In this document: positions 2,466 through 15,433 of the stretch, piece after piece
Layout of the letters: every line of letters starts with the position of its first letter
How positions within the stretch are numbered: the stretch's first letter is position 1
NCBI GenBank assembly: GCA_030680995.1
Contig: JAUXUM010000227.1
Span: 1-58,060 of the forward strand
Origin: Devosia sp.
GTDB taxonomy: Bacteria; Pseudomonadota; Alphaproteobacteria; Rhizobiales; Devosiaceae
Reading direction: 5' to 3'
DNA length: 58,060 nucleotides
The notes under the pieces: model-generated
Database searches by the model: none
What the model was told of the DNA's origin: nothing
What the model saw: only the letters and a program-made list of their open reading frames with translations
Program-made: the position numbers and the translations under genes

Positions 2466-3536
2466 CTAGGCCAGATAACGCAGCAGGAAGCGATTTTCGC
2501 TGATCAGCCGGTAAGGGATGCTTTCGTGTCGTATCAGTCCGCTGCCGTGCACGGTCCTGTCCCGGATCAGATCGACCATGCAGCAGACATGCGCCGCCGA
2601 TATGGAACTCATGGCGCTCACCGGAAAAGCACTGCGCATGGGTTCGTGATAGATCTTGCGCACGTAGGATCGTTCCGCCGGAACCCCCTCGTGTTGACCA
2701 CGCACGCTGATGAAAATCACCAGCACGTCCTGAACGACATCGGGAACACCATAGCGCAGCACCGTTCGCAAGATGTCGCGTCGGCGCTTCAACCCGAGTT
2801 CCTCGAAGAGAAAGCGCGCCAATTGCAGATGGCCTGGATAGCGGATGGTCTTGAAGCTGAGATTGCGCACTTTTGGCTTTAGCGCCATGCAGAGATCGCC
2901 CAGTCCGCCCGCCGTGCTGAATGCCTCGTACGGACGGCCATTGAGTACGAACTGCTCGTATTGTTGCAGCGGCGGCGCACTGACGAGTTCACCTTCCACG
3001 AGGCCCTCGCAGCGGCCGGTATATTCGGCGATCAGGCCGTCGACATCCCAGGAAAGCCCATAGCCGAAACTGGTCGAGGGGTTGACGGGCAGACCGCCCG
3101 CGCGGACGACCATGTCGACTGGCCCATCCAGCGCACCGGCGAGTTCGGCCGCGATGTTGGCGACCAGCCCGGGCGACAGCCCGCAGCCGGGCAGAACCAG
3201 GCTGGCATGCCCCGGCGTCTGCGCCAGGGCCTTTATGGCGCTGGTGTCTTCAACGGTATCGACATAGTGCGTACCGGTCTGCAGCGCGGCAGTCGCCACC
3301 GTTTTTCCCAGGCCCATTGGCACGGCATTGACGACCAGATCGAATTCCCTCAGCGTCTCGACACAATCGGGCAGACTTGATGCGTCAAGGTGGCGGGTGC
3401 GGTAGCCGCGCTGGCTTGCCCGATCCAGCGCCTCGCTCGTGGCGTCGGCGACCTCCACCCAATATTCGTCCGCAGTGGCCAGGATGCCTGCTGCCGCCAA
3501 GCCGATCCGGCCGGCCCCGACAATCAGGACTCTCAT
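2466..3536 (-). CDS. Lysine/saccharopine dehydrogenase-like oxidoreductase
   Basis: A 356-aa NAD(P)-dependent oxidoreductase of the saccharopine dehydrogenase / lysine 6-dehydrogenase superfamily. The N-terminal Rossmann motif is RVLIVGAGRIGLAAAGIL. The middle has the family segments THYVDTVED and LPGCGLSPGLVANIAA. The C-terminal catalytic region has GGLPVNP, then FGYGLSWDVDGLIAEYTG, typical of saccharopine reductase-like and lysine-dehydrogenase-like enzymes. The substrate is not determined by sequence; L-lysine, saccharopine or diaminopimelate-like amino acids are candidates. The ATG at 3536 begins directly with the Rossmann strand and was chosen; a TTG at 3551 overlapping the previous stop is an alternative. 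It is the last gene of the transporter part of the operon, which supports a role on the imported amino acid. Confidence 0.8.
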   Translation of the reverse strand: MRVLIVGAGRIGLAAAGILATADEYWVEVADATSEALDRASQRGYRTRHLDASSLPDCVETLREFDLVVNAVPMGLGKTVATAALQTGTHYVDTVEDTSAIKALAQTPGHASLVLPGCGLSPGLVANIAAELAGALDGPVDMVVRAGGLPVNPSTSFGYGLSWDVDGLIAEYTGRCEGLVEGELVSAPPLQQYEQFVLNGRPYEAFSTAGGLGDLCMALKPKVRNLSFKTIRYPGHLQLARFLFEELGLKRRRDILRTVLRYGVPDVVQDVLVIFISVRGQHEGVPAERSYVRKIYHEPMRSAFPVSAMSSISAAHVCCMVDLIRDRTVHGSGLIRHESIPYRLISENRFLLRYLA

Positions 3537-3547
3537 CGGGGCATCGC

Positions 3548-4351
3548 TCAAGAGTGGAACCGTGACAGGAATGTCCGCAGCCGCGCGGTGCCGGACTGGT
3601 GGATGACACTGTCAGCGGAACCGATTTCGGCGATCACTCCTTCGTCGATGAAGGCGACGCGATCGGCAATATCGGCGGCAAAGGCAATTTCATGCGTGAC
3701 GATCGCCATGGTCATGCCATCCTGAACCAGCGCCCGGATGACCTCGAGGACCTCGCCGACAAGTTCGGGATCCAGCGCGCTCGTCACCTCGTCCAGCAGC
3801 AGCACATCCGGGCGCATGGCCAGTGCCCTGGCGATAGCGACGCGCTGTTTCTGGCCGCCGGAGAGGTGGTTGGGGTAGACGTCGCGCTTGTCGACCAGGC
3901 CGACCTTGGCAAGCAGGTCCATGGCCCGCGCCTCGACGCTTTCTCTTGGCTCCCTGAGAACCACCAGCGGGCCTTCGCAGATATTCTGCAGCACCGTCTT
4001 GTGCGGAAAGAGATTGAAATGCTGGAACACCATGCCGACATGGCGTCGCAATTCGCCGTACCCGACCCGCTCCTTTCGGGACGCAAAGCGGGTTTCGACC
4101 TGTCGCCCCTTGTAGCGGATGACCCCCGCCGACGGCGTTTCCATCATGTTGAGGCATCGGATCAAGGTCGATTTTCCCGATCCCGAAGGACCTATGATGG
4201 CGAGCACTTCCCCAGCTTTCAGCGAAAGATCAACCCCCTTGATCACCTCGAGTTTACCATAGCTCTTTCTCAGGCCGGTGGCGTCGAGGATGACATCGGC
4301 GCTGGCGGATGCCGCCTTCGCCTCCCTGGTGGCGGGTGCACTCAAATCCAT
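3548..4351 (-). CDS. Polar amino-acid ABC transporter ATP-binding protein
   Basis: ATPase of the GlnQ/HisP type, 267 aa. Visible motifs are Walker A (GPSGSGKST), the Q-loop (VFQHFNLFPHKTV, typical of amino-acid importers), the signature LSGGQKQRVAIARAL, Walker B (VLLLDEVTSALDPE) and the switch histidine (VTHE). The ATG at 4351 follows a good ribosome-binding site (GGAAGGTGAG); an in-frame upstream start at 4423 would overlap the permease gene and is less likely. It sits 40 bp after the permease gene and 11 bp before the dehydrogenase-like gene. It should energise the single permease encoded next to it, probably as a homodimer. Confidence 0.93.
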   Translation of the reverse strand: MDLSAPATREAKAASASADVILDATGLRKSYGKLEVIKGVDLSLKAGEVLAIIGPSGSGKSTLIRCLNMMETPSAGVIRYKGRQVETRFASRKERVGYGELRRHVGMVFQHFNLFPHKTVLQNICEGPLVVLREPRESVEARAMDLLAKVGLVDKRDVYPNHLSGGQKQRVAIARALAMRPDVLLLDEVTSALDPELVGEVLEVIRALVQDGMTMAIVTHEIAFAADIADRVAFIDEGVIAEIGSADSVIHQSGTARLRTFLSRFHS

Positions 4352-4391
4352 GATCTCACCTTCCTGCAAGGACGCTCGTTCCGATGCATGG

Positions 4392-5054
4392 CTAGTCGCT
4401 GACGCGAAGCCGCCGCTCGACATAGTCCGCCACCTGCGTCATCGGGAACAAGAGCGCGAAGTAGAGCACTGCCACCACCGTATAGGCCTCGAGCGGACGA
4501 TAGGTCTGCCCGTTCACCACCGCGGCCATGTAGGCCAATTCGCCTACCGAGATCACCGAGATCAGCGAGGTGTTCTTGAACTGGATGACCGACTGGTTGA
4601 TGAAGGCCGGCAGCATGCGCTTCAGCGCCTGCGGCATGACGATCCGCCACATTGTCTGGCGTCCCGACATCGCGATTGCCTTGGCGGCCTCGGTCTGTCC
4701 GCGATCGATCGAAAGAATGCCACCCCTGAAGATCTCGGCGTAGAACGAGCCGGCATAGAGCGACAGCGTCAGCAACGCCGCGGTGGTGTTGTCGAGCGAA
4801 AAGCCGAGCAGCAGCGGCAGTGCGTAGTAGAACCAGAGCAACTGCACCAGCAGCGGCGTACACCGGAACACTTCCTGATAGGCCCTTGCAAGAAGACGGA
4901 TGAACCAATTGTTGGACAGCCTGCTGAAACAGACAGCAAAGCCGATGACAACGCCAATCACAATGGAAGCGGTTGTATAGGCGAATGTCAGCCACAGGCC
5001 CCACAGGAACAGGTCCCAGGACTGAAGCACAACACTAAAATCCATCTTGTACAT
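4392..5054 (-). CDS. Polar amino-acid ABC transporter permease
   Basis: A 220-aa inner-membrane permease of the HisM/GlnP family. It has about five hydrophobic segments and the family EAA-loop (EAAKAIAMSGRQTMWRIVMPQAL), which contacts the ATPase. The TPLLVQLLWFYYALP stretch is characteristic of polar amino-acid importers. Start ATG 5054 follows GGGAG at good spacing; a second ATG lies three codons in. Only one permease gene is present, so a homodimeric channel is implied. Confidence 0.93.
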   Translation of the reverse strand: MYKMDFSVVLQSWDLFLWGLWLTFAYTTASIVIGVVIGFAVCFSRLSNNWFIRLLARAYQEVFRCTPLLVQLLWFYYALPLLLGFSLDNTTAALLTLSLYAGSFYAEIFRGGILSIDRGQTEAAKAIAMSGRQTMWRIVMPQALKRMLPAFINQSVIQFKNTSLISVISVGELAYMAAVVNGQTYRPLEAYTVVAVLYFALLFPMTQVADYVERRLRVSD

Positions 5055-5112
5055 CAGTCACTCCCTGCGGTGCTACCGGGGCGCCGCGAACAGCGCCCCG
5101 GCATTTCAGGCA

Positions 5113-5952
5113 TCAGCCGCCGACGTCGAAGCCCGCGGGCAGGTCTTCGATGGTAATGTCAAACGGAGCCAAACCCTTGACGATCCAGGTCTGGTTGTTG
5201 CCGACCCGGCGATTGTAGTTCGCCCAGGCCGAGATGAACGACTTGAACTGCTCATCGGCGGCGTAGCTGATGCCGATCACAGACGGCGACGACAACAGTG
5301 GCTGCGGCACATAGACTGCGCCGAGTTGAGCGTTGCGCTTGACCATCACCATCGAATTCAAAACGGTGTTGATGAGCGCGTCCGCCTTGCCACTGGCCAC
5401 GGCCAAGATGGCCTCGTCGCGCGTCTTGAAGCGCAGCACATTGGCTTTCGGCAGGTATTGCTGGGTGATCAGGTCCTGGGCCGAGCCAAGATCAACCGCT
5501 ACCGTCACGCCAGGATCATTGAGCGAAGCCCAGGTGGCATTGGCAAGTTCCGGCTTCGGAGAAACGATCACAAAGCTATTATAGTAGGTCGGATCGGAGA
5601 AGGATATTGCCAGCGCGCGCGCCGGCAGCGCGGTCAGCGCCAGAGCGATATCGGCCTTGCCGGATTGCACGTCGAGGATCGAGTTTGCCCAGGAGCTCTC
5701 AACCACCTCGAGTTCGACCCCGATGGTCGTTGCGATGTCGTTGGCCATGTCGATGACGAAACCGCGCCATTCGCCGGTACGGGGATCCTTGTTGAAATAG
5801 GGATCCTCATTGACAATGGCAGGGACGCGCAAGACGCCACGTTCCTTGATCTGGTCGATTGTGCTCTTGTTGTCCTGTGCCATGGTCGGCGCGGCGACCG
5901 TTATGCCCAGTGCGAGTAACGATGCGGCCAGGATGGCCTTGAATATTGTCAT
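5113..5952 (-). CDS. Periplasmic amino-acid-binding protein
   Basis: A 279-aa solute-binding protein of the bacterial extracellular family 3. The N-terminus is a Sec signal peptide with a hydrophobic core and a probable cleavage after PTMA. The mature part has TIDQIKERGVLRVPAIVNEDPYF and WRGFVIDMANDIATTIGVELEVVE, typical of the first lobe of glutamine/lysine/arginine-type binding proteins. Ligand identity cannot be read from the sequence. It starts with ATG 5952 after AAGGAGGGAC. It precedes the permease gene by 58 bp and is the first of the three transporter genes. Confidence 0.92.
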   Translation of the reverse strand: MTIFKAILAASLLALGITVAAPTMAQDNKSTIDQIKERGVLRVPAIVNEDPYFNKDPRTGEWRGFVIDMANDIATTIGVELEVVESSWANSILDVQSGKADIALALTALPARALAISFSDPTYYNSFVIVSPKPELANATWASLNDPGVTVAVDLGSAQDLITQQYLPKANVLRFKTRDEAILAVASGKADALINTVLNSMVMVKRNAQLGAVYVPQPLLSSPSVIGISYAADEQFKSFISAWANYNRRVGNNQTWIVKGLAPFDITIEDLPAGFDVGG

Positions 5953-6114
5953 GCGAGTCCCTCCTTGGATGATAAGAAAAATCGGTTGAATCTTGTTCTC
6001 AGGTGACTGGCGCCCGTTCGCCCGACGTCCTTGCGGGGAACTGTGCTACCCTTGTCTGGGCTCTTCAATGCAAACGGTCGGTCCGGACTTGTGTCTTTTC
6101 TTGGAAGGTCCGGT

Positions 6115-7014
6115 CTACGCGGATTGACGCTCGAAGGCCGCGAGCGCCCGTTCGAGTATGATCCGGCTGGAAGCGCCAAGCGGCGCGAGTGGCGCACGGA
6201 CGCTGCCACTCATCAGCTGACGGATGGCCAAGGCCTGCTTGACCGGGACCGGATTGCCTTCCACGAACATTGCCTTGGACAGCGCATGGATGCGCTGATG
6301 CAGGGCAAGGGCCACATGATGCTCGCCGCGACGCCAGGCATCGAGCATGGCAACCATCTCTTTGGGCGCGTAATTGGAGACGACGCTGGTGACACCATGC
6401 GCTCCGACCGAGAGGAACGGCAAGGTCAGAGCGTCATCTCCCGAATGGATGACGAAGTCTTCTCCACACAGCGCGCGCAGGTCGGAAATGCGCTCGCTCC
6501 GGCCTCCGGCCTCCTTGATCCCCACGATGTTGCCATGGGTCTCAGCCAGTTGCGCAGCCGTTTCCGGCGCAATCTCGACACCGCAGCGGCCCGGCACGCT
6601 ATAGAGCACGATCGGCAGGCCGGTACTGCGCGCCACCGCGCCATAATGGAGCAGCAAGCCTTCCTGGCTGGGCTTGTTGTAATAGGGTGTGACCACTAGG
6701 CATCCATCCGCACCGGCGGCTTCGGCCGCCCGTGCGGCGGCAACGGCATGGGCGGTATTGTTTGAGCCCGTACCGGCCAGGACAAAGGCCCTGCCGTCCG
6801 CGACCGCCACGGTGCGCCGTATGAGCGCGATCGCCTCCTCGGCTTCAAGCGCTGCCGCCTCGCCGGTCGTACCGACCGGCACCAGGCCGCGGATCCCAGC
6901 CGCAATCTGACGCTCGACCAGATTGTCATAGGCAGCAAAATCGATTTCCGCGTCATCGAATGGGGTCACAAGGGCCGTGAAGACCCCCGAGAATGTCTCG
7001 ATCATGTTCGCCAT
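6115..7014 (-). CDS. Dihydrodipicolinate synthase-family lyase (DapA-like)
   Basis: A 299-aa class I pyruvate-type aldolase/lyase of the DapA/NAL family. Key features are GTTGEAAAL (pyruvate-binding loop), TPYYNKP with the conserved Tyr, VPGRCGVEI where Arg corresponds to the substrate-carboxylate Arg of dihydrodipicolinate synthase, and GIKEAGG with the Schiff-base Lys. These suggest a true synthase-like or retro-aldol activity (pyruvate plus aspartate semialdehyde). The family also contains the hydroxyproline-pathway 1-pyrroline-4-hydroxy-2-carboxylate deaminase. ATG 7014 follows AAGGAAACG; an upstream frame to 7101 overlaps the dapB-like gene. It follows the dapB-like gene by 46 bp in the same operon. 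Confidence 0.88.
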   Translation of the reverse strand: MANMIETFSGVFTALVTPFDDAEIDFAAYDNLVERQIAAGIRGLVPVGTTGEAAALEAEEAIALIRRTVAVADGRAFVLAGTGSNNTAHAVAAARAAEAAGADGCLVVTPYYNKPSQEGLLLHYGAVARSTGLPIVLYSVPGRCGVEIAPETAAQLAETHGNIVGIKEAGGRSERISDLRALCGEDFVIHSGDDALTLPFLSVGAHGVTSVVSNYAPKEMVAMLDAWRRGEHHVALALHQRIHALSKAMFVEGNPVPVKQALAIRQLMSGSVRAPLAPLGASSRIILERALAAFERQSA

Positions 7015-7060
7015 AACGTTTCCTTGTTCAAAGCCTGCGCCGCCGCCGCGCGCCTGATCG

Positions 7061-7801
7061 TCAGGACCACATGTCCGATGGTGCGTAGAGCCGAGGACCA
7101 CGGGCCTCGCGCGACAGCCATTCCGCGGCGCTCAAGGCCCCTTCCGCATAGGCGGTCAATGTGTTTACGGCAAAAGTGAAACTGGCCTTGGTGACGCCCA
7201 TGTCGAATTGCACCTGATTGATGCCAACGGTGTCGGCAAGCCGATGAATGTGGACATCCGGCTCGGGGGCGAGAGCGCCCGCCATCCGGGTCTGTATGTC
7301 GCGGATGCCTTGCGCCAGCTGCAGTGAGGTCCCCGACGCGACGCGCTTCTTGCGCTGGTGGTAGGTTTCATCGACGGTCACGAGCGCCCCCGGATGCAAC
7401 TGGGCAAAGCGGAATACGCTGGTCGCGAATGCGCCGAAACCCGGGCCGAAATTGGCCCCGAGCATGATCGGGCGCAGCTTGGCGGCATTGGCCAGGGCTT
7501 CCTGCTGGGCCGCCGAAAAGCCGGTGGTGCCGATCACGACCGGCACCGGTTTGCTGCCCAGCAATTCCTGCAGCTGCAGACTGGCCTCGGGGGTCGAGAA
7601 ATCGATGATAGCGTCGCAATAGGCGTTGATCGCCGCCTCTGCCGGTCGATACTCGATGATTGTGCCGCCCACGGCCCGGCCAAGCCAGGACGAGCTTGGC
7701 GAGACGTGGGCAGCCGCGAGTTCGAGGTCGGGCCGGGCGAGGATTGTCTCGACCAGACGCGTCCCAATTCTGCCCGAGGCGCCGTAGATGGCGATCCGCA
7801 T
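7061..7801 (-). CDS. Dihydrodipicolinate reductase-like protein (DapB family, divergent active site)
   Basis: A 246-aa DapB-family oxidoreductase. The N-terminal nucleotide-binding motif is YGASGRIGTRLV, followed by IGTTGF and a GANFGPG loop equivalent to the family's AANFSVG. The catalytic segment reads ETYHQRKKRVASGTS where canonical DapB has E-x-H-H-x-x-K-x-D-A-P-S-G-T. One His and the catalytic Lys are kept; the first His is Tyr, and the Asp and Pro of the DAPSGT box are changed. This suggests a specialised paralogue rather than the housekeeping enzyme. It starts at ATG 7801, 9 bp after the aldehyde dehydrogenase gene. Confidence 0.82.
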   Translation of the reverse strand: MRIAIYGASGRIGTRLVETILARPDLELAAAHVSPSSSWLGRAVGGTIIEYRPAEAAINAYCDAIIDFSTPEASLQLQELLGSKPVPVVIGTTGFSAAQQEALANAAKLRPIMLGANFGPGFGAFATSVFRFAQLHPGALVTVDETYHQRKKRVASGTSLQLAQGIRDIQTRMAGALAPEPDVHIHRLADTVGINQVQFDMGVTKASFTFAVNTLTAYAEGALSAAEWLSREARGPRLYAPSDMWS

Positions 7802-7810
7802 TGCGTTCTC

Positions 7811-9211
7811 CTAGTCGATGACCACTTTGGTTTCGCTCATCTCGCGGAGCGTTATCCGAACCCCTTCGCGCCCCAGGCCGCTCGATTTGATGCCACCAAA
7901 GGGGACGTGCTCGGCACGGAAGTCCGGGCCTTCGTTAATCATCACGCCGCCGACCTGCAGCGTGCGGGAGAAGAGTTTGACGGTGTCGTGGTCGGTCGTG
8001 AAAACCCCGGCCTGCAGTCCATGGGCGCCGGAATTGACCTCGGCGATCGCGATAACCGGATCAACGAAGCGGCGGACGGAAATCACCGGTCCGAAGGTCT
8101 CCTCGGCAAACAGCGCCGACTCTAGGCGGACATCCTTGATCACGGTTGGGGTCATCAGAGCACCACGCCGCGTGCCGCCCAGGACGAGCGTGGCGCCATC
8201 CCCGACGGCGTTGGCGATGCGGCGCTCGACAAAGGCTGCGGCATCGATGTCGATGAGCGGTCCCATCTGTGTTTCCGGATCGCGCGGATCCCCATGGCGC
8301 AGGGCAGCAACCGCCTCGGTCAGGTTGTCGAGAAATGCATTGTGAATATCGGCATGCAGATACAGTTTCTTCACCGCGGCGCAACTCTGGCCAGCAATTT
8401 CGAAGCGTTGCGCAATTGTGGTGCGCAGGGCGGCGTCAAGATCGGCATCGGGCATGACAAAGAGCGGGTCATTACCGCCCAGTTCCATCAGGCAACGGAT
8501 CAGCCCCGCGGCATTCCTGAGCGCAAGCCCGGCTACGGCACCCCCCGTGAAACTCAGCAGATCTATTTGAGACCGGGCCAGCGTGATTGCCTGCTCGGCG
8601 CCGCCATGCACCAGCTGAAACAGCCCGTTGGGAAACCCCGCCCGTTCGGCAAGCGCTGCGAGCCGCTCCACGGTGAGTGGCGCTTTCGGCGACGGTTTTG
8701 CAATTACGGCATTACCGGCGGCAATGGCCGGACCGAGTTTGTGACAGAGCAGATTGAGCGGGTAGTTGAATGGCGTAATCGCAGCAACGACCCCGACCGG
8801 ACCGTAGGTCACGACCGCCTGCCGGTCGACGCCCCCTGCAACAATGCCGCAATGGAGCACTTCGCCGTCAAGAAACGTCGCGGCATCACCCGACAGTTTG
8901 AGCGTGTTCTGGGCGCGACGCACCTCGTTGCGGGCTTCCGTGATCGTCTTGCCGACCTCGGCGCAAAGCAGCTGCGCCAGCGGCTCGGCTTCCGCGGCGA
9001 TCTCGGCGGCTAGCCGCTCAAGGAGATTTCGGCGCTCGAACGGCATGGAAAAGCGGAATTCCGCCTGCGCCAGTTTTGCCCGCGCAACCGCGGCGGCGAT
9101 GTCGGCGGGGCTGGCCGGCGTCACCGTGCCGACCAGCTGCCCGTCATATGGAGAGTGGATCTCAAGCTGTTCGTTTCGGCTCGGTCTCGACACGTGCGCC
9201 AGGGCTGCCAT
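7811..9211 (-). CDS. Aldehyde (semialdehyde) dehydrogenase
   Basis: A 466-aa NAD(P)-dependent aldehyde dehydrogenase with the complete set of family motifs: TPFNYPLN (catalytic Asn), the cofactor glycine motif SFTGG, MELGGNDP (general-base Glu), GQSCAAVKK (nucleophile Cys), and EETFGPV. The closest recognisable type is the lactaldehyde / non-phosphorylating glyceraldehyde-phosphate / phosphonoacetaldehyde group, but substrate assignment is not possible from sequence. ATG 9211 lies 2 bp after the stop of the upstream FAD subunit, implying coupled translation. In this operon it could oxidise a semialdehyde such as aspartate or aminoadipate semialdehyde. Confidence 0.88.
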   Translation of the reverse strand: MAALAHVSRPSRNEQLEIHSPYDGQLVGTVTPASPADIAAAVARAKLAQAEFRFSMPFERRNLLERLAAEIAAEAEPLAQLLCAEVGKTITEARNEVRRAQNTLKLSGDAATFLDGEVLHCGIVAGGVDRQAVVTYGPVGVVAAITPFNYPLNLLCHKLGPAIAAGNAVIAKPSPKAPLTVERLAALAERAGFPNGLFQLVHGGAEQAITLARSQIDLLSFTGGAVAGLALRNAAGLIRCLMELGGNDPLFVMPDADLDAALRTTIAQRFEIAGQSCAAVKKLYLHADIHNAFLDNLTEAVAALRHGDPRDPETQMGPLIDIDAAAFVERRIANAVGDGATLVLGGTRRGALMTPTVIKDVRLESALFAEETFGPVISVRRFVDPVIAIAEVNSGAHGLQAGVFTTDHDTVKLFSRTLQVGGVMINEGPDFRAEHVPFGGIKSSGLGREGVRITLREMSETKVVID

Positions 9212-9213
9212 GG

Positions 9214-10569
9214 TCAGTCGCTCTCGTTGGGTGGGATGGATGAAATCGCGTCGGCGACTGCAGGACCGAGCAGGGACCTGATGGCAACCGGACGCGATGG
9301 CCAGCGGTTGCCGATGAATTCGGCGCCGGCCGGTTGCGCGCTGCAGGTCTGTTGCGCCAGCATCGCGCCTGCCCATTCGACACAGAACCGCCCCTGACAG
9401 GATCCCATGCCGATGCGGCCATTCAGCTTGATCTCGCGTGGCGAAGGTTGATCGTCCGTCGCCAGCATTTGCCTCAGCGCGCCGACGGTGCGGCCTTCGC
9501 ACCGACACAGAATTGTTTCATCCGGCAACTTCAATAGGTCCGGGATGCCAAAGTCGAAAATGTTTGCGAGCGCCTGTTGCGCTCGGCGTTCTGTATCGAC
9601 AATGCGCCGGGAGGCAGAACTCATCGGCGGTGCGCCGGTGAGCCGGGCGATCACCTGCTGCGCCGCGTTGCGGCCATCGGCGATCGCCGCCACACCGCCA
9701 AGTGCCTCGCGACAGTCTCCGGCCAGAACCACATGCGGATTTCGATCGGTAGCGTGTGCGGCCGGCGGCAAGCCGTCGGAATTGGACCGCAGCCCATCGT
9801 GCAGCGCAACTTTGTCGACGACTATCCGCGACACTGCGCCGGCCCCGTCGACGATCACGGTCTCCAGCCGCCCATCGTCTGTCGGGCGGATGGTCTGAAC
9901 ACTAGAGCCCAGCCGCCAGGGAACCCCGGCTTGCATGAGGCGCCGCATGTAGCCAGCCGCTTCGGCAAGGTAGCGCGGCCATAGAAGGAGTGGCGCCGCG
10001 CGCAGGGGCGACAGCACCTGGCGGCTGCGCTCCAGAATGGCGAGTGGCGGTGCGCCGAGCGCCGTCATTTGGGCTGCGACCGCCAGCAGCAACGGGCCGG
10101 ACCCGGCAAGCAGCACGGAGCCTGCCGGTCCGCGGCCAGTCACTTTCATCATCACTTGCAATCCACCGACAGTGACGACACCCGGCAGATGCCAACCCGG
10201 CCGCGGCACGACGCGCTCGAGGCCGCCGACCGCAAGGACCAATGCCCGTACCCGCAACACCAGGAGGCGGCCTTGGCGCCGGTCCTCGACGAGCACCGCT
10301 CCGGTGGCGTCCAGGCCAATGAAGGCATGGAAGGTCAACACTTCCGCGTCGGTCTTGGCCAGTAATGCACTTAGCTTATGCCAGCGCGCCGACTGCGCGC
10401 GCGGTACGGGTACGGCGCGCGCCGGGTTGCCCGGCTGGCGATGGATGGCGCCGCCCAACGCGCCGCCCTGCTCGCACAGCGTCACCTTGAGGCCGGACCG
10501 CGCCATCTCGGCGGCGGCCGCCACGCCGGCGGGCCCGCCCCCGATGACGAGCACATCCATGCTTCTCAT
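9214..10569 (-). CDS. HcnB/OoxA-like FAD-dependent dehydrogenase subunit
   Basis: A 451-aa pyridine-nucleotide-disulphide-type flavoprotein resembling HcnB, OoxA and the alpha subunit of D-hydroxyproline dehydrogenase. The N-terminal FAD motif is MDVLVIGGGPAGVAAAAEMA. A second dinucleotide motif is GSVLLAGSGPLLLAVAAQM. The C-terminus carries a BFD-type [2Fe-2S] domain with ETILCRCEG and RIGMGSCQGRFC. ATG 10569 overlaps the stop of the preceding ferredoxin-like gene by four bases (ATGA). With its two neighbours it should form a heterotrimeric membrane-linked dehydrogenase for a secondary amine or D-amino acid. Confidence 0.88.
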   Translation of the reverse strand: MRSMDVLVIGGGPAGVAAAAEMARSGLKVTLCEQGGALGGAIHRQPGNPARAVPVPRAQSARWHKLSALLAKTDAEVLTFHAFIGLDATGAVLVEDRRQGRLLVLRVRALVLAVGGLERVVPRPGWHLPGVVTVGGLQVMMKVTGRGPAGSVLLAGSGPLLLAVAAQMTALGAPPLAILERSRQVLSPLRAAPLLLWPRYLAEAAGYMRRLMQAGVPWRLGSSVQTIRPTDDGRLETVIVDGAGAVSRIVVDKVALHDGLRSNSDGLPPAAHATDRNPHVVLAGDCREALGGVAAIADGRNAAQQVIARLTGAPPMSSASRRIVDTERRAQQALANIFDFGIPDLLKLPDETILCRCEGRTVGALRQMLATDDQPSPREIKLNGRIGMGSCQGRFCVEWAGAMLAQQTCSAQPAGAEFIGNRWPSRPVAIRSLLGPAVADAISSIPPNESD

Positions 10570-10826
10570 TGGCGCACCGGCTTCAGTGTTCGAACCTGCT
10601 GCCCGGCTTGTGCCGGGGTCAGGCAGGCCTCGGCTGGAGTGCCGCCAACCGACACGACGCAGGCCTGGCAGGCGCCAATGCCGCAAAAATAGCGCGCGTT
10701 GCAGGGTCCTTGCCCCGCACCGAAATCGGTAACGCCGGCGCGTTCGAGCGCGGCAGCGATCGTGTCGGCTGGCTCAAACGAGATCCGCTGGCCATTCCAG
10801 AAAAAGCTTTCGCTCCGGTCAGTCAC
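10566..10826 (-). CDS. HcnA-like (2Fe-2S)-binding subunit
   Basis: An 86-aa ferredoxin-like subunit. A Cys cluster (GPCNARYFCGIGACQACVV followed by EACLT) matches the four-ligand pattern of plant-type [2Fe-2S] domains in HcnA and the gamma subunits of opine and hydroxyproline dehydrogenases. It carries electrons between the two flavin subunits or to the quinone pool. The start is GTG at 10826, overlapping the stop of the upstream oxidoreductase by four bases; its own stop overlaps the next start likewise. The tight overlaps indicate stoichiometric production. Confidence 0.87.
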   Translation of the reverse strand: MTDRSESFFWNGQRISFEPADTIAAALERAGVTDFGAGQGPCNARYFCGIGACQACVVSVGGTPAEACLTPAQAGQQVRTLKPVRQ

Positions 10827-12007
10827 GCTGCCGCCTCTGCCCGGAACCGAGCCGGGTTCAGCGCCGAAATGTCGACATTGACATGGGCGCCGCTGATGAG
10901 TTGCTGGCTGACCCGGCCCATGAGTGGGCCAAGGCAGATACCGTCGCCTTCAAAGCCAGTGGCAATCCAGACATTTTCATGTGCCGACAGCCGGCCGACG
11001 ATCGGCAAACCATCTCTGGTTGCGGCACGAATTCCCGCAAAAACCCTGAGCACGCGCAGGCGTGCGAGCGCGGGAACCAGCTCAACAGCCTCCTGCAGCA
11101 GCCGGCGGACGGCTTCGATATCCGTCTGGCTGCCATCAGCGCTGTCCTCACGCGTGCCGCCAATCAGAAACTGCCCGGTCTGCAGTGGATCGATCACCAG
11201 CCCAAACGAGCGCCCCGCGGGGGCATCGCCGCCCGGCTGGCTGCCTTTGCTGATCAGGTACCGGCACGACATCAACGGGCCGGGAAAACGCGGGACGATG
11301 CCTTCCCCCCGTTCGGTGATGATCAGCTGCCCTTTGCGCGGCCGGATCACGTCGGCGACGTCAAGAAATGCCGCCGAGCCGCGCCCCGCGGCGACGAGCA
11401 CGGCGTCGGCGCGCTCGATGCCCTGTTCCGTCTCGACGCCGGCAACCTTCCCGGCCTGCCGCCAAAGGCCCTGGACCGCGACGTTGCGCTTGACCGCGAA
11501 TCCGCCAATCCGGCGAAACCTCTCGACCACCTTGTAGCCAATCGCGTGGCCATCACCCTGGACTTCGATGGCCGCACGGGTCGTGGGCGCAAGCGAACCT
11601 AGCGCCTGATCGCGTTCCGCCTTGCTCAAGGCCCGCAGCGTGACACCGGCTTCCCGCAGCTGCGTCGCGTGCCGGTCAAGCACTGGCAGTTCGTTCGGCT
11701 CGGTGGCGACGACATAGGTGAGCCGCCTTACGAATTCACCGTCGAGGACGCCGGCGTCACAGAGGTCCTGGTAAAACTGCGCTCCGGCAACCGCGAGCGT
11801 CATCAGCGGCCCGGCCTTCTTGCTGGCAACCGAAACGGCTCCGTCGGCCGCGCCGGTAGCGCCAGATGCCGGCGCCCCCTGGTCCAGCACCGTGACCCGC
11901 CAGCCGGCCTGCGATAGAAAATACGCGGCTGACATGCCGACAATGCCGGCGCCGACAATGACGACTGAGTTTGCCCTATCACTAACGGGACTGATTTCAT
12001 GAGGCAT
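10823..12007 (-). CDS. HcnC/OoxB-like FAD-dependent amino-acid oxidoreductase
   Basis: A 394-aa DAO-type flavoprotein (HcnC, OoxB or beta subunit of D-hydroxyproline dehydrogenase). The N-terminus has the FAD motif SVVIVGAGIVGMSAAYFLSQAGWRVTVLD. The C-terminus has FAGIRAATRDGLPIVG and NVWIATGFEGDGICLGP, the second FAD contact typical of the family. It oxidises the C-N bond of an amine-containing substrate. The start is uncertain: ATG 12007 gives a normal-length N-terminus, while ATG 12037 and 12091 would add 10 or 28 residues. It is the first gene of the operon and diverges from the LysR gene. Confidence 0.87.
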   Translation of the reverse strand: MPHEISPVSDRANSVVIVGAGIVGMSAAYFLSQAGWRVTVLDQGAPASGATGAADGAVSVASKKAGPLMTLAVAGAQFYQDLCDAGVLDGEFVRRLTYVVATEPNELPVLDRHATQLREAGVTLRALSKAERDQALGSLAPTTRAAIEVQGDGHAIGYKVVERFRRIGGFAVKRNVAVQGLWRQAGKVAGVETEQGIERADAVLVAAGRGSAAFLDVADVIRPRKGQLIITERGEGIVPRFPGPLMSCRYLISKGSQPGGDAPAGRSFGLVIDPLQTGQFLIGGTREDSADGSQTDIEAVRRLLQEAVELVPALARLRVLRVFAGIRAATRDGLPIVGRLSAHENVWIATGFEGDGICLGPLMGRVSQQLISGAHVNVDISALNPARFRAEAAA

Positions 12008-12181
12008 TTTCTGAGGGCGTCGCCGTGACCATTTCATGTAACAATGGTCATCGAGGCCCAATAGCGTCGATACAAATGACGCGAGGACCAACCGGCGCTT
12101 TTTTGTAGACCAGCGACGCGCGCGCCGTTTGCCGGAGGCGCGCCGAACGCTATGCTATCCACCGGACAATCGGTGGGCGCC
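12008..12181. promoter_or_regulatory. divergent promoter region of LysR gene and catabolic operon
   Basis: This 174-bp region separates a LysR regulator from the oppositely transcribed operon, the usual arrangement for a LysR-controlled system. I could not fix a single operator or -10/-35 pair with confidence. Regulation by the adjacent LysR protein is inferred from position only. Confidence 0.5.
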
Positions 12182-13099
12182 ATGGCCGAAGTAAATCTGA
12201 CGTTGATCCAGACATTCTATCAGGTGGCCCGGAACGGGTCCTACTCCGCCGCCGCGCGCGAGCTGAACCTGAGCTACCAGTCTGCAGCCAACCATGTGCG
12301 GCGTCTTGAGCAACAGATGCAGCAGGCATTGGTCGAATCCGATCAGGGTGCCAAGAAAATCCGACTGACCCCACGGGGGGTCGCGCTCTACAACTTGCTG
12401 CACCCCGAACTGGACATCATGCTCGAGCGACTCTCGCTGGTGGTCGCAAGCCAGCGGGCGGTGCTCCGCATCGGGCTGCCGCAGGCGATTTTTTTCTACC
12501 TCCTGCCTCCCATACTGAAACAATTCCAGGCGCGTTTCCCGGGTGTGGAGGTGATCGCCTACGAGCGCGACACCTCGCTCGCCGAACTGGTCAAGAATGG
12601 CAGTCTCGACGTTTGCATCAACGAACGTTTCTTCGGCGACCCGGTCGTGCAGCAAAGCCTGCTCGGCACCTACTATCTGAGCCTGGTCTACCCGAAGAGC
12701 TGGGGGCCGCCGCCGGCGCCGTCAGATATTCCGGCCTGGTCACGCGGACGTCCGTTGATCACCTACGAACCTGGCCAGACATTGCGCAATATCGCGCTGG
12801 ACTTCCTCTCGAAAGGCGGTGGGCAGTCCGAGCCGACGATTTCTGCCTCGGGCAGTTCAAGTGTCCAGAAGTGCGTCGAAAGGGGGCTGGGTTTTTCGAT
12901 CATTCCGACTTGGTGCGTGACCCCGGAGGACCAGGACCTCGTGCAGGTCAAGATCAACGTGCTGCCGCCCGTCGCGGTCTATTTCGGGCAGGCGCTGTTC
13001 ATGGCCAAGAATACATACGTTCAGGCACTCCATGAACAGTGTCGCGTCAGTCTGGTCGGCACCGCGTTGGAGGCTGCGGACCGAGCCCTCGGCGCTTGA
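12182..13099 (+). CDS. LysR-family transcriptional regulator
   Basis: A 305-aa LysR-type regulator. The N-terminal winged helix reads VNLTLIQTFYQVARNGSYSAAARELNLSYQSAANHVRRLEQQ (residues about 4-45). The C-terminal effector domain includes VLRIGLPQAIFFYLLPPILKQFQARFPGVEV. ATG 12182 gives the standard family start; ATG 12152 is possible. It is divergently transcribed from the FAD-dehydrogenase/DapAB/ABC-transporter operon and very likely responds to its substrate or an intermediate. The 3' end runs up to the decayed region of the next cluster. Confidence 0.9.
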   Translation: MAEVNLTLIQTFYQVARNGSYSAAARELNLSYQSAANHVRRLEQQMQQALVESDQGAKKIRLTPRGVALYNLLHPELDIMLERLSLVVASQRAVLRIGLPQAIFFYLLPPILKQFQARFPGVEVIAYERDTSLAELVKNGSLDVCINERFFGDPVVQQSLLGTYYLSLVYPKSWGPPPAPSDIPAWSRGRPLITYEPGQTLRNIALDFLSKGGGQSEPTISASGSSSVQKCVERGLGFSIIPTWCVTPEDQDLVQVKINVLPPVAVYFGQALFMAKNTYVQALHEQCRVSLVGTALEAADRALGA

Positions 13100-13584: not shown

Positions 13585-14433
13585 TCATATCAACTTGTAT
13601 TGCCGTGCCTTGTTGCGCAGAAATGGCAGACCGTTGTCCATGACTTCAGCTTCGTCGCGCGCTACCGGTCGCCAGACCGACAGCCCATAGGCCACCTCCG
13701 GCGGCATGTTGATGAAACTCTCCATTGCCAGCCCGCCCTTGAAGCGGATTGCGGCGAGCGCGGCAAAGACCTCATCCCAATCGCAGGTACCGCTGCCCGG
13801 CGTTCCCCGGTCGCTTTCCGAAAGGTGGATGTATTTCAGGTGATCGCGCGCATCAAGAATGCCGTTGGCGGCGCCCTTTTCCTCGATATTCATATGATAG
13901 GTATCGAGGTGGATGAACATATTGTCGGCACCAACGCGCTCAATCATCTCTACCGCTTGCCAACCGGTATTAATGAGGTGGTTTTCATAGCGGTTGACCG
14001 GCTCGATGCCGAGCAGGATGCCGCGCGACTTTGCATGTCTGGCCGCGGCCGTCAGCGTCCGGGCGATGTTGTCATATTCGCCCTGCGTGGGCGGAACGCC
14101 GGTGCGCTCGCCAATGCCGCCAAAGGTGACACCGGACAACGCCAGCGCGCCCATTTCTGCGGTCTTGTCGATGGCGACTCCCAGGTATTCAATCGCCTTC
14201 TGCGGATGCCTGGACGCCCAGGCCGGCTCGGGCAGGCCAAGGGAGCAGACCGCCTTCAGATCGTTCTGTTCCAGCAGGGTACGCGAGTGCGCCGTGTCCA
14301 CCGCCGGAGCGTTGAGCAACGCAATCTCGATGAAATCCATCTTGTACCGTACGGCCGCCGCCACGGCCTTCTCGGCGCCGGCTCGATCCCAGTTCATCGT
14401 CCACATGCTGGTGTGCACGCCAAAGCCTTGCAT
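13585..14433 (-). CDS. Ketose 3-epimerase-like sugar isomerase/epimerase
   Basis: A 282-aa TIM-barrel protein of the xylose-isomerase-like superfamily, closest to D-tagatose/D-psicose/L-ribulose 3-epimerases. The metal and catalytic residues fall at a constant offset of eight from D-tagatose 3-epimerase: E144 (in GIEPVNRYE), D177 (HLDTYHMNIEE), H203 (YIHLSESDRG) and E238 (LAMESF). It should interconvert C3 epimers of ketoses in the cytoplasm after import. It lies 4 bp after the second permease gene and shares the operon. Exact sugar specificity is unknown. Confidence 0.85.
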   Translation of the reverse strand: MQGFGVHTSMWTMNWDRAGAEKAVAAAVRYKMDFIEIALLNAPAVDTAHSRTLLEQNDLKAVCSLGLPEPAWASRHPQKAIEYLGVAIDKTAEMGALALSGVTFGGIGERTGVPPTQGEYDNIARTLTAAARHAKSRGILLGIEPVNRYENHLINTGWQAVEMIERVGADNMFIHLDTYHMNIEEKGAANGILDARDHLKYIHLSESDRGTPGSGTCDWDEVFAALAAIRFKGGLAMESFINMPPEVAYGLSVWRPVARDEAEVMDNGLPFLRNKARQYKLI

Positions 14434-14437
14434 GACT

Positions 14438-15433
14438 TCATTCCCTCTTCCGGTTTGAGCTTCTGTAGGTGGCTGCCAGCCAGCGCAGAATCATTACAGC
14501 GATCAGGAACAGGCCCCACACCGCCGTCGAAAGGTGCTGGTTCGCTCCGAGCAGATTGAGCCCGGACGACAGTACCTGCAGGATGACCAGCGCGAGCACA
14601 ACCGGGACCACGCGGCCAAATCCGCCGAAGGGATCTATGCCTCCGAGGAAACAGGCGAGCACCGTGACCAGGAGCAGCGCCTCGCCATGCCCTACCCTCA
14701 CCGAATTGAATCGCGTCAGCATCAGGATACCTGCGATCGCGCACATTGCGCCCGAGAGGGTGTATATCAATGTCAGCGTGCGCTTCGTGTGGATGCCCGA
14801 ATAGTGTGCCGCCCTGATATTCGAGCCGATCATGAAGACTGAAAAACCGTGTCGGGTTCGGTTCAGCAGCACGTGCCAGACCAGCGCCGCGGCCAGAAAG
14901 ATCACCAGGGGCACGGGTATGCCCAGAATGAAGCCGTGGCCGATGCCGTGGAGAAAGTCCGGAAAGCCGGAGATGTCGCCGCCCCTGGTCAGGAACTCTC
15001 CCAGACCGCGCAGGAAGATCATCATCGCCAGCGACACCAGGATCGGATGGGCGCCGACATAGGCGATGACCAGTCCCATGACGCAGCCGGACAATGCCCC
15101 AACCGCAATTGCCGCAGCGGACCCGAACAGAAAGACGGGCATTCCGGCATCGACGCCCCCATTCTGGTTGAGGATCCACGCTAGCGTCAGGCCGCTGATA
15201 TTGGCCGTGTAGATGATCGCCAGATTGAACCCACCGGAGATGATCGGCATCAGCATCGCGAGCGTCAGCAATCCGAGTTCGGGGAGCTGGAAGGCCATGG
15301 ATCCGAAATTGGCGACCGTCAGGAACTGCGGCGTCGCGAGGCTGAACACGACGAGGACCAGGAGAAGAAAGCCGACAAGGCCGATGACCCCGGTGCCCAG
15401 TTCCTTGTCGAGTCTTGCGTAGAGCGCTCTCAT
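14438..15433 (-). CDS. Sugar ABC transporter permease (RbsC type) 2
   Basis: A 331-aa RbsC/FrcC-type inner-membrane permease with about 8-10 hydrophobic segments. Recognisable segments are PIISGGFNLAIIYTANISGL, a variant of the family's ISGGIDLS motif, and GHGEALLLVTVLACFLGGIDPFGGFGRVVPVVLALVILQVLSSGLNLLG. The first motif has an Asn where most relatives have Asp, and the second has GGIDPFGG where typical members have GGxSxxGG, so this subunit is somewhat divergent. It is separated from the other permease gene by one base and probably pairs with it as a heterodimer. Confidence 0.88.
   Translation of the reverse strand: MRALYARLDKELGTGVIGLVGFLLLVLVVFSLATPQFLTVANFGSMAFQLPELGLLTLAMLMPIISGGFNLAIIYTANISGLTLAWILNQNGGVDAGMPVFLFGSAAAIAVGALSGCVMGLVIAYVGAHPILVSLAMMIFLRGLGEFLTRGGDISGFPDFLHGIGHGFILGIPVPLVIFLAAALVWHVLLNRTRHGFSVFMIGSNIRAAHYSGIHTKRTLTLIYTLSGAMCAIAGILMLTRFNSVRVGHGEALLLVTVLACFLGGIDPFGGFGRVVPVVLALVILQVLSSGLNLLGANQHLSTAVWGLFLIAVMILRWLAATYRSSNRKRE

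Follow-up and report, generated by a model that had tools for sequence, protein, structure and literature searches.

In this work we analysed a 58,060-nucleotide stretch of Devosia sp. DNA (contig JAUXUM010000227.1, assembly GCA_030680995.1; hereafter the window) that carries ten co-directional genes on its minus strand, from 12007 to 2466, with a LysR-type regulator gene divergent on the plus strand (open frame from 12152). On balance we favour, with modest confidence, the reading that this is a catabolic operon, which imports a C7 amino dicarboxylate, brings it into the dipicolinate ring, cleaves it with a DapA-type enzyme to pyruvate and aspartate semialdehyde (ASA), and converts the latter to aspartate. 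The LysR protein probably controls the operon. The ABC importer would take up the substrate, for which the likeliest candidates are diaminopimelate and its cyclic or hydroxylated relatives, for example a piperidine-2,6-dicarboxylate. An HcnABC-like flavoprotein (its electrons presumably passing to the respiratory chain) and a saccharopine/L-lysine-dehydrogenase-like enzyme (SDHL) would oxidize the amino or imino carbons, and the oxidized compound would enter the dipicolinate ring system as tetrahydrodipicolinate or 4-hydroxy-tetrahydrodipicolinate. The DapA-type enzyme would perform the retro-aldol cleavage of 4-hydroxy-tetrahydrodipicolinate to pyruvate and L-aspartate semialdehyde, and an aldehyde dehydrogenase (ALDH) would oxidize ASA to aspartate; in one variant operon (L044) Asd and aspartokinase would do so instead, followed by aspartase. 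A DapB paralogue (DapBL) would assist by acting on dihydrodipicolinate, whichever way that reaction runs. The genes described below support the inference that the operon is catabolic, that DapA performs the cleavage and that ASA is an intermediate; which compound is the substrate, in what order it is oxidized and what role DapBL plays are put forward as conjecture.

The DapA-type aldolase (6115–7014; all operon genes are on the minus strand) scores 318.7 bits against TIGR00674, over the curated cut-off of 206.15, and was found in all 37 relatives of the operon that were collected. When the 38 proteins (window and 37 loci) are aligned to Escherichia coli DapA, T44, T45, Y107, Y133, R138 and K161 are kept in all of them, and S48 (replaced by Ala), H53, H56 and E84 are lost in all of them. 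We take T44, T45, Y107, Y133 and K161 to be catalytic, R138 to bind ASA, and S48, H53, H56, E84, N80 and Y106 to belong to the lysine-feedback site. The genome's other DapA (L007) retains S48, H53, H56, N80 and E84. With its residues of dihydrodipicolinate synthase (DHDPS) type kept, the operon protein is of the true DapA type, and with four feedback residues gone it has probably escaped control by lysine, as would be expected of a catabolic enzyme.

The ALDH (7811–9211; PF00171, 445 bits) has the motifs GQSC, ELGGN and P-F/W-N-Y/F-P in all 36 proteins compared. Enzymes of this family run towards the acid, and we know of no aldehyde dehydrogenase able to form ASA from aspartate; since operons that bear the ALDH can only run towards the acid, the direction should be catabolic. 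The variant operon L044, from Xanthobacteraceae bacterium Astr-EGSB 16, has no match for the ALDH, the binding protein, the permease or the ATPase. After its last gene, SDHL, and on the same strand, follow genes for Asd (445 bits, cut-off 324), aspartokinase (TIGR00657, 300 bits, cut-off 209), a sodium:solute symporter and aspartase (718 bits, cut-off 681). Asd and aspartokinase are second copies, other asd and aspartokinase genes being present in that genome, and the simplest reading is that they replaced the ALDH for the conversion of ASA to aspartate. A TRAP-type transporter set lies upstream of the L044 LysR gene, and either it or the symporter could take the place of the missing importer. 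In an unrooted tree of five shared proteins L044 is placed among the ALDH-bearing operons, its exact position being weak (0.538), and it would be non-nested only if the root fell on its own branch. Taken alone, L044 could also be compatible with synthesis; it is the other operons that set the direction. A search for further variants of this kind found no DapBL at 1e-40 in the other 295 genomes of L044's family. ASA as the product of the cleavage is well supported as a prediction because the DapA residue pattern holds in 38 of 38 proteins and L044 carries replacement genes for the next step. The part of the initial annotation that had DapA cleave its substrate to ASA, and ASA pass to aspartate, thus gains support from the kept catalytic residues, the lost feedback residues and the Asd, aspartokinase and aspartase genes of L044.

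The initial annotation had suggested looking for this gene set in other genomes and for housekeeping dapA and dapB elsewhere in this one, and both were found. Of 33 loci scanned, 30 have matches to all eleven proteins (the ten of the operon and LysR) in one cluster, at 33–88% identity. The loci counted in this work are not independent, L140 being near-identical to L003 and several rhizobial loci being close, and the 33 were picked by their match to DapBL, so that this gene is present by construction (it is damaged in L048). The exceptions are L030, a 3.5-kb contig with five of the genes, the variant L044, and L049, which has a housekeeping-type DapB only. Clustering as frequent as this is far beyond chance. 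The genome itself (3.14 Mb, 257 contigs, 96% complete) has a second dapB on contig C249 and three further DapA-family genes, one of which (on C191) scores like a full dapA; because of this other dapA and dapB, the operon copies are probably not needed for lysine synthesis. Misplaced housekeeping lysine genes were rejected as an explanation of the operon on the same ground.

In a protein search of plasmids, which gave 13 records, DapBL genes turned up in two Pannonibacter records and in Martelella, Ensifer canadensis and Ciceribacter, and the four plasmid loci examined, one of them from Pannonibacter and one from each of the others, all have the same cluster. When five aligned DapBL proteins were used to scan named genomes, 511 related loci were returned; among the best 80 of these, 28 (L021–L048) are close relatives (39–61% identity), whereas the others do not exceed 34% and resemble housekeeping DapB. 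Judging from record titles, at least 12 named genera of rhizobia and relatives carry the system. DapBL was found in at least 12 of 136 genomes of the window's family (the window's included), and only two matches stand out among 385 genomes of its class, at 438 bits (the window) and 352, the next scoring 118. The ALDH was found in at least 7 of 397 genomes of the order and at least 1 of 398 of the phylum, the latter being the window itself; these tallies are lower bounds, as few candidates were scored per genome (four in the order and phylum ALDH searches). The distribution of the operon is patchy. The position of the binding-protein gene varies: 7 of the 30 complete loci (L038 and the six from Devosia) have it within the operon, and the other 23 have it on the far side of LysR. 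In the flanks of the 37 loci, only generic ABC-ATPase frames (11 of 37) recur, together with genes common to the near-identical L026, L031, L033 and L045, and the flanking genes gave no clue to the substrate. L026, titled Arenimonas (a metagenome-assembled genome), groups in trees with Ciceribacter and Rhizobium and has flanking genes in common with L031, L033 and L045; it is probably a mis-binned contig. In L034 a transposase-like open frame (5561–6781), which we take to be of the IS110 type, lies between the HcnC and HcnA genes, so that the operon of that isolate is possibly interrupted.

As a working hypothesis, the imported compound would probably be a C7 amino dicarboxylate related to diaminopimelate or dipicolinate; an opine is less likely. 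SDHL (2466–3551; PF03435 and PF16653 above cut-off) gives an AlphaFold2 model (mean pLDDT 88.8) whose nearest structure is the L-lysine dehydrogenase of Pyrococcus (3abi; Foldseek E 2.2e-28; Z 40.5, rmsd 2.1 over 337 residues), followed by carboxyspermidine dehydrogenases (Z 35.7). Since diaminopimelate differs from lysine by an added carboxyl group on C6 (6-carboxy-lysine), the resemblance of the model to lysine dehydrogenase is suggestive of diaminopimelate, though only suggestive. In Azospirillum a relative of SDHL adjoins an Lrp-type regulator gene. The three-subunit amino/imino-acid dehydrogenase consists of an HcnC/OdhB-like (beta) FAD subunit (10823–12007; Pfam DAO, 185 bits; GxGxxG-type motif in 37 of 37 orthologues), an HcnA/OdhC-like (gamma) small 2Fe-2S subunit with a GTG start (10566–10826; Fer2_4, 50 bits) and an HcnB/OdhA-like (alpha) subunit with a C-terminal Fe-S region (9214–10569; Pyr_redox_2, 70 bits; Fer2_BFD under cut-off). 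C-x4-C-x2-C is present in 37 of 37 HcnA proteins, a guessed pattern for the spacing of the fourth Cys fitting 4 of 37; CRCE and CQGRFC are present in 37 of 37 HcnB proteins, and G-G/A-GPAG in 31 of 37. Relatives of the flavoprotein and of LysR in Sinorhizobium meliloti, S. medicae and Shinella lie in loci with other ABC importers, and in Sinorhizobium also with an amidase; these loci apparently represent a different system.

The importer comprises a periplasmic binding protein (5113–5952; SBP_bac_3, 61 bits), a permease (4392–5054; TIGR01726, 92 bits, cut-off 42) and an ATPase (3548–4351; PF00005, 130 bits; Walker A in 37 of 37), all of the polar amino-acid type. In the binding protein the equivalent of Arg77, presumably a carboxylate contact, is kept in 36 of 36 proteins, that of Asp161, which we take to contact the alpha-ammonium group of ordinary amino acids, is Thr in 36 of 36, and all 36 have Glu at position 14. 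Asp/Glu/hydantoin-racemase-family genes flank the operon of Chelatococcus sp. CO-6 (L125, 17913–18623 and 6929–7603), one of them overlapping the SDHL end by one base, and genes so annotated also adjoin related binding proteins in L148–L150.

DapBL (7061–7801) scores 100.8 bits against TIGR00036, under the curated cut-off of 122, and its L044 counterpart 113.7. Its AlphaFold2 model (mean pLDDT 89.6) has the DapB fold, is nearest to DapB structures, and the 50 best Foldseek matches listed are all DapB/HTPA reductases, with a best TM of 0.88 by query length. His159, which with Lys163 we take to be catalytic in DapB, is Tyr in all 33 copies aligned at that position (L048 has a gap there), H160 is kept in 34 of 34, K163 in 33 of 34, and G169 and T170 in 33 of 33 aligned.

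Several observations weigh against the catabolic reading as set out above. The operons of Chelatococcus sp. CO-6, for which only the plasmids were searched, and of L137–L139 have no DapBL gene; the 13 records of the DapBL plasmid search include no Chelatococcus plasmid. These four loci have all ten remaining genes, in an altered arrangement in L137–L139, with binding proteins 65–72% identical to that of the window. In L048 (10001–10726) the DapBL frame lacks the catalytic motif ETYHxRKK...SGT and the other ten operon genes match. Entry through tetrahydrodipicolinate would need DapBL, yet DapBL is absent or damaged in these five loci. In addition, NAD-linked dehydrogenation of tetrahydrodipicolinate is, by our own rough estimate, some tens of kJ/mol uphill. 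As for the other proteins, N80 and Y106 of the lysine-feedback site are still present in 38 of 38 operon DapA proteins; the ALDH falls under the cut-off of each of 25 NCBIfam models listed, and ASA is assigned to it from context; and the Asd/aspartokinase variant is a single genome, DapBL being found in at least 1 of 296 genomes of that family. Finally, Asp161 is likewise lost, and position 14 is Thr, in three relatives of the binding protein from Agrobacterium and Bosea loci that contain Asp/Glu-racemase-family and FAD oxidoreductase genes. Only Glu14 would then mark the operon group, and the loss of Asp161 appears to say little about the ligand, so that the binding protein does not identify the substrate.

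Since the gene is missing in L125 and L137–L139 and its motif is lost in L048, DapBL is not an indispensable part of the operon, and it may be accessory, acting in either direction. L125 and L137–L139 group together with 98% support (0.996 in a second tree), so that the absence may reflect one gain or one loss, the trees being unrooted and L137–L139 lying on a very long branch. Housekeeping DapB might substitute where DapBL is absent or damaged. In the three genomes of L137–L139, a DapB search gave one housekeeping-level match (about 73 bits) in each of two and none at 1e-5 in the third. A quinone-linked flavoprotein would avoid the uphill reversal of DapB. The initial annotation suggested that the diaminopimelate pathway could run backwards, with a reverse DapB reaction as a required step. 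That step is not supported, the gene being missing in two related lineages and damaged in L048, and His159 being Tyr in every aligned copy; the DapA cleavage to ASA and the conversion of ASA to aspartate are supported, and the substrate is still hypothetical.

A stronger form of the catabolic reading, which we regard as a speculative possibility, is that the whole route from aspartate to diaminopimelate is reversed: diaminopimelate derived from peptidoglycan, or its cyclic form, would enter the dipicolinate ring and yield pyruvate and ASA, then aspartate, and in L044 Asd and aspartokinase would also run in reverse, gaining ATP, before aspartase releases fumarate.

An alternative that accommodates the absence or damage of DapBL in some operons is that the imported compound is already 4-hydroxylated (4-hydroxy-piperidine-2,6-dicarboxylate or 4-hydroxy-diaminopimelate), so that oxidation of the amine gives 4-hydroxy-tetrahydrodipicolinate directly. 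This would be a six-ring parallel of the hydroxyproline pathway with no DapB step, DapBL merely clearing dihydrodipicolinate that forms spontaneously. It would explain operons that have lost or damaged DapBL and still have DapA, ALDH, dehydrogenases and importer, and the uphill reverse DapB step would be avoided. However, such compounds are not known to have an abundant natural source, and the conservation of H160, K163, G169 and T170 in 33 of 34 DapBL proteins is left unexplained; we consider this alternative rather unlikely, if worth keeping in mind.

Less likely again is the degradation of a compound resembling an opine or an opine metallophore, in which the flavoprotein would release pyruvate, SDHL would release ASA by carboxyspermidine-dehydrogenase chemistry in reverse, and DapA and DapBL would run forward on pyruvate and ASA. 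This possibility is suggested by the position of carboxyspermidine dehydrogenases as the next closest structures to SDHL, and it fits L044, as ASA would also be produced. One study describes a beta-gamma-alpha subunit order (OdhB-C-A), near ABC transporter genes, for flavin opine and D-hydroxyproline dehydrogenases, which is the order seen here, and assigns an Arg-X-Trp FMN motif to the beta subunit of opine dehydrogenase (PMC4575208). That motif is in none of the 37 HcnC proteins, no opine-type partner enzyme recurs in the flanks of the 37 loci, and DapA is present in all 37 relatives even though the ALDH alone would remove ASA.

We think it improbable that the operon is biosynthetic, making a product derived from tetrahydrodipicolinate from aspartate and pyruvate. 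DapA and DapBL running forward, a DapA without feedback residues, and the Asd and aspartokinase of L044 would all suit that direction, but the ALDH cannot yield ASA from aspartate, the importer and its binding protein are conserved, and aspartase is usually degradative.

The degradation of hydroxyproline (or a proline-type compound) is the least probable of all. The hydroxyproline route has a DapA-family deaminase and a semialdehyde dehydrogenase, roles that the operon DapA and ALDH (as a ketoglutarate-semialdehyde dehydrogenase) would have to fill. A three-subunit flavoprotein much like the one found here also takes part in breaking down hydroxyproline (PMC4575208). Against this reading, DapA is over the TIGR00674 cut-off with R138 kept, the ALDH scores 227 bits against NF042993 for a cut-off of 770, and L044 carries Asd and aspartokinase. 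The two proline-racemase-family (PF05544) proteins of this genome, used as queries for hydroxyproline epimerase, gave no tblastn match at 1e-5 in the 37 loci; their genes lie on contig C61 with a gene that reads as DadA-like between them, and a 30%-identical DapA-family gene lies beside ABC genes on contig C74. Because the racemase-family genes are on C61 and have no such match in the 37 operon loci, hydroxyproline degradation probably has its own genes elsewhere in the genome. A simple hydroxyproline cluster was rejected, in view of the lack of an epimerase-family match and the true class of DapA.

The gene list of the initial annotation, with strand and coordinates, was borne out throughout by open frames and family searches, gene starts being chosen from translations of the open frames. 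Between neighbouring genes of the operon there is either an overlap of a few bases or a gap of no more than 58 bp; only DapA and the binding protein are further apart (162 bp). The LysR gene (12152–13099, plus strand, probable start 12182) adjoins the operon in the loci scanned and has orthologues 41–85% identical in 36 of 37 loci, the short contig L030 being the one without a match. At the downstream end of the operon lie mobile-element genes, an IS66-family transposase gene (237–1598) and then a pRiA4b ORF-3-like gene (1704–2315). Adjoining LysR, at 13585–15433, are a xylose-isomerase-like TIM barrel gene and a BPD_transp_2 permease gene, apparently unrelated.

Searches of the open-licence literature, which covers few subscription journals, listed no paper that by its title deals with such a pathway. 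If true, a full reversal would give an amino acid common in bacterial cell walls a route that has not been described. If the catabolic reading is right, a biosynthetic DapA would have been recruited in rhizobia and relatives for cleavage in the opposite direction, with its feedback site largely erased. It would also offer a genetic handle on bacterial recycling of diaminopimelate or related ring compounds. Where annotated, the operon genes are labelled lysine-biosynthetic dapA and dihydrodipicolinate reductase, labels that would be corrected.

Compared with known systems, the operon resembles trans-4-hydroxyproline degradation in having a flavoprotein, a DapA-family enzyme and an aldehyde dehydrogenase, and differs from it by a DapA of true DHDPS type, by DapBL and SDHL as extra enzymes, and by the lack of an epimerase-family gene in the 37 loci. 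It shares with flavin opine and D-hydroxyproline dehydrogenases, as described in PMC4575208, the beta-gamma-alpha order near ABC transporter genes, and departs from them in lacking the Arg-X-Trp FMN motif in the beta subunit (0 of 37 HcnC proteins) and in its partner enzymes. With the L-lysine (6-)dehydrogenase pathway it has in common SDHL, whose model best matches 3abi; in Ruegeria, one report places an aminoadipate-semialdehyde dehydrogenase gene (SPO0235) after the lysine dehydrogenase gene (SPO0234) (PMC4334477), whereas the companions here are DapA, DapBL and the flavoprotein. With diaminopimelate/lysine biosynthesis it shares paralogues of DapA and DapB, and in L044 also Asd and aspartokinase; in contrast with that pathway, these are extra copies that accompany an importer, dehydrogenases and an ALDH, with a DapA devoid of four feedback residues and a DapBL in which Tyr replaces His159.

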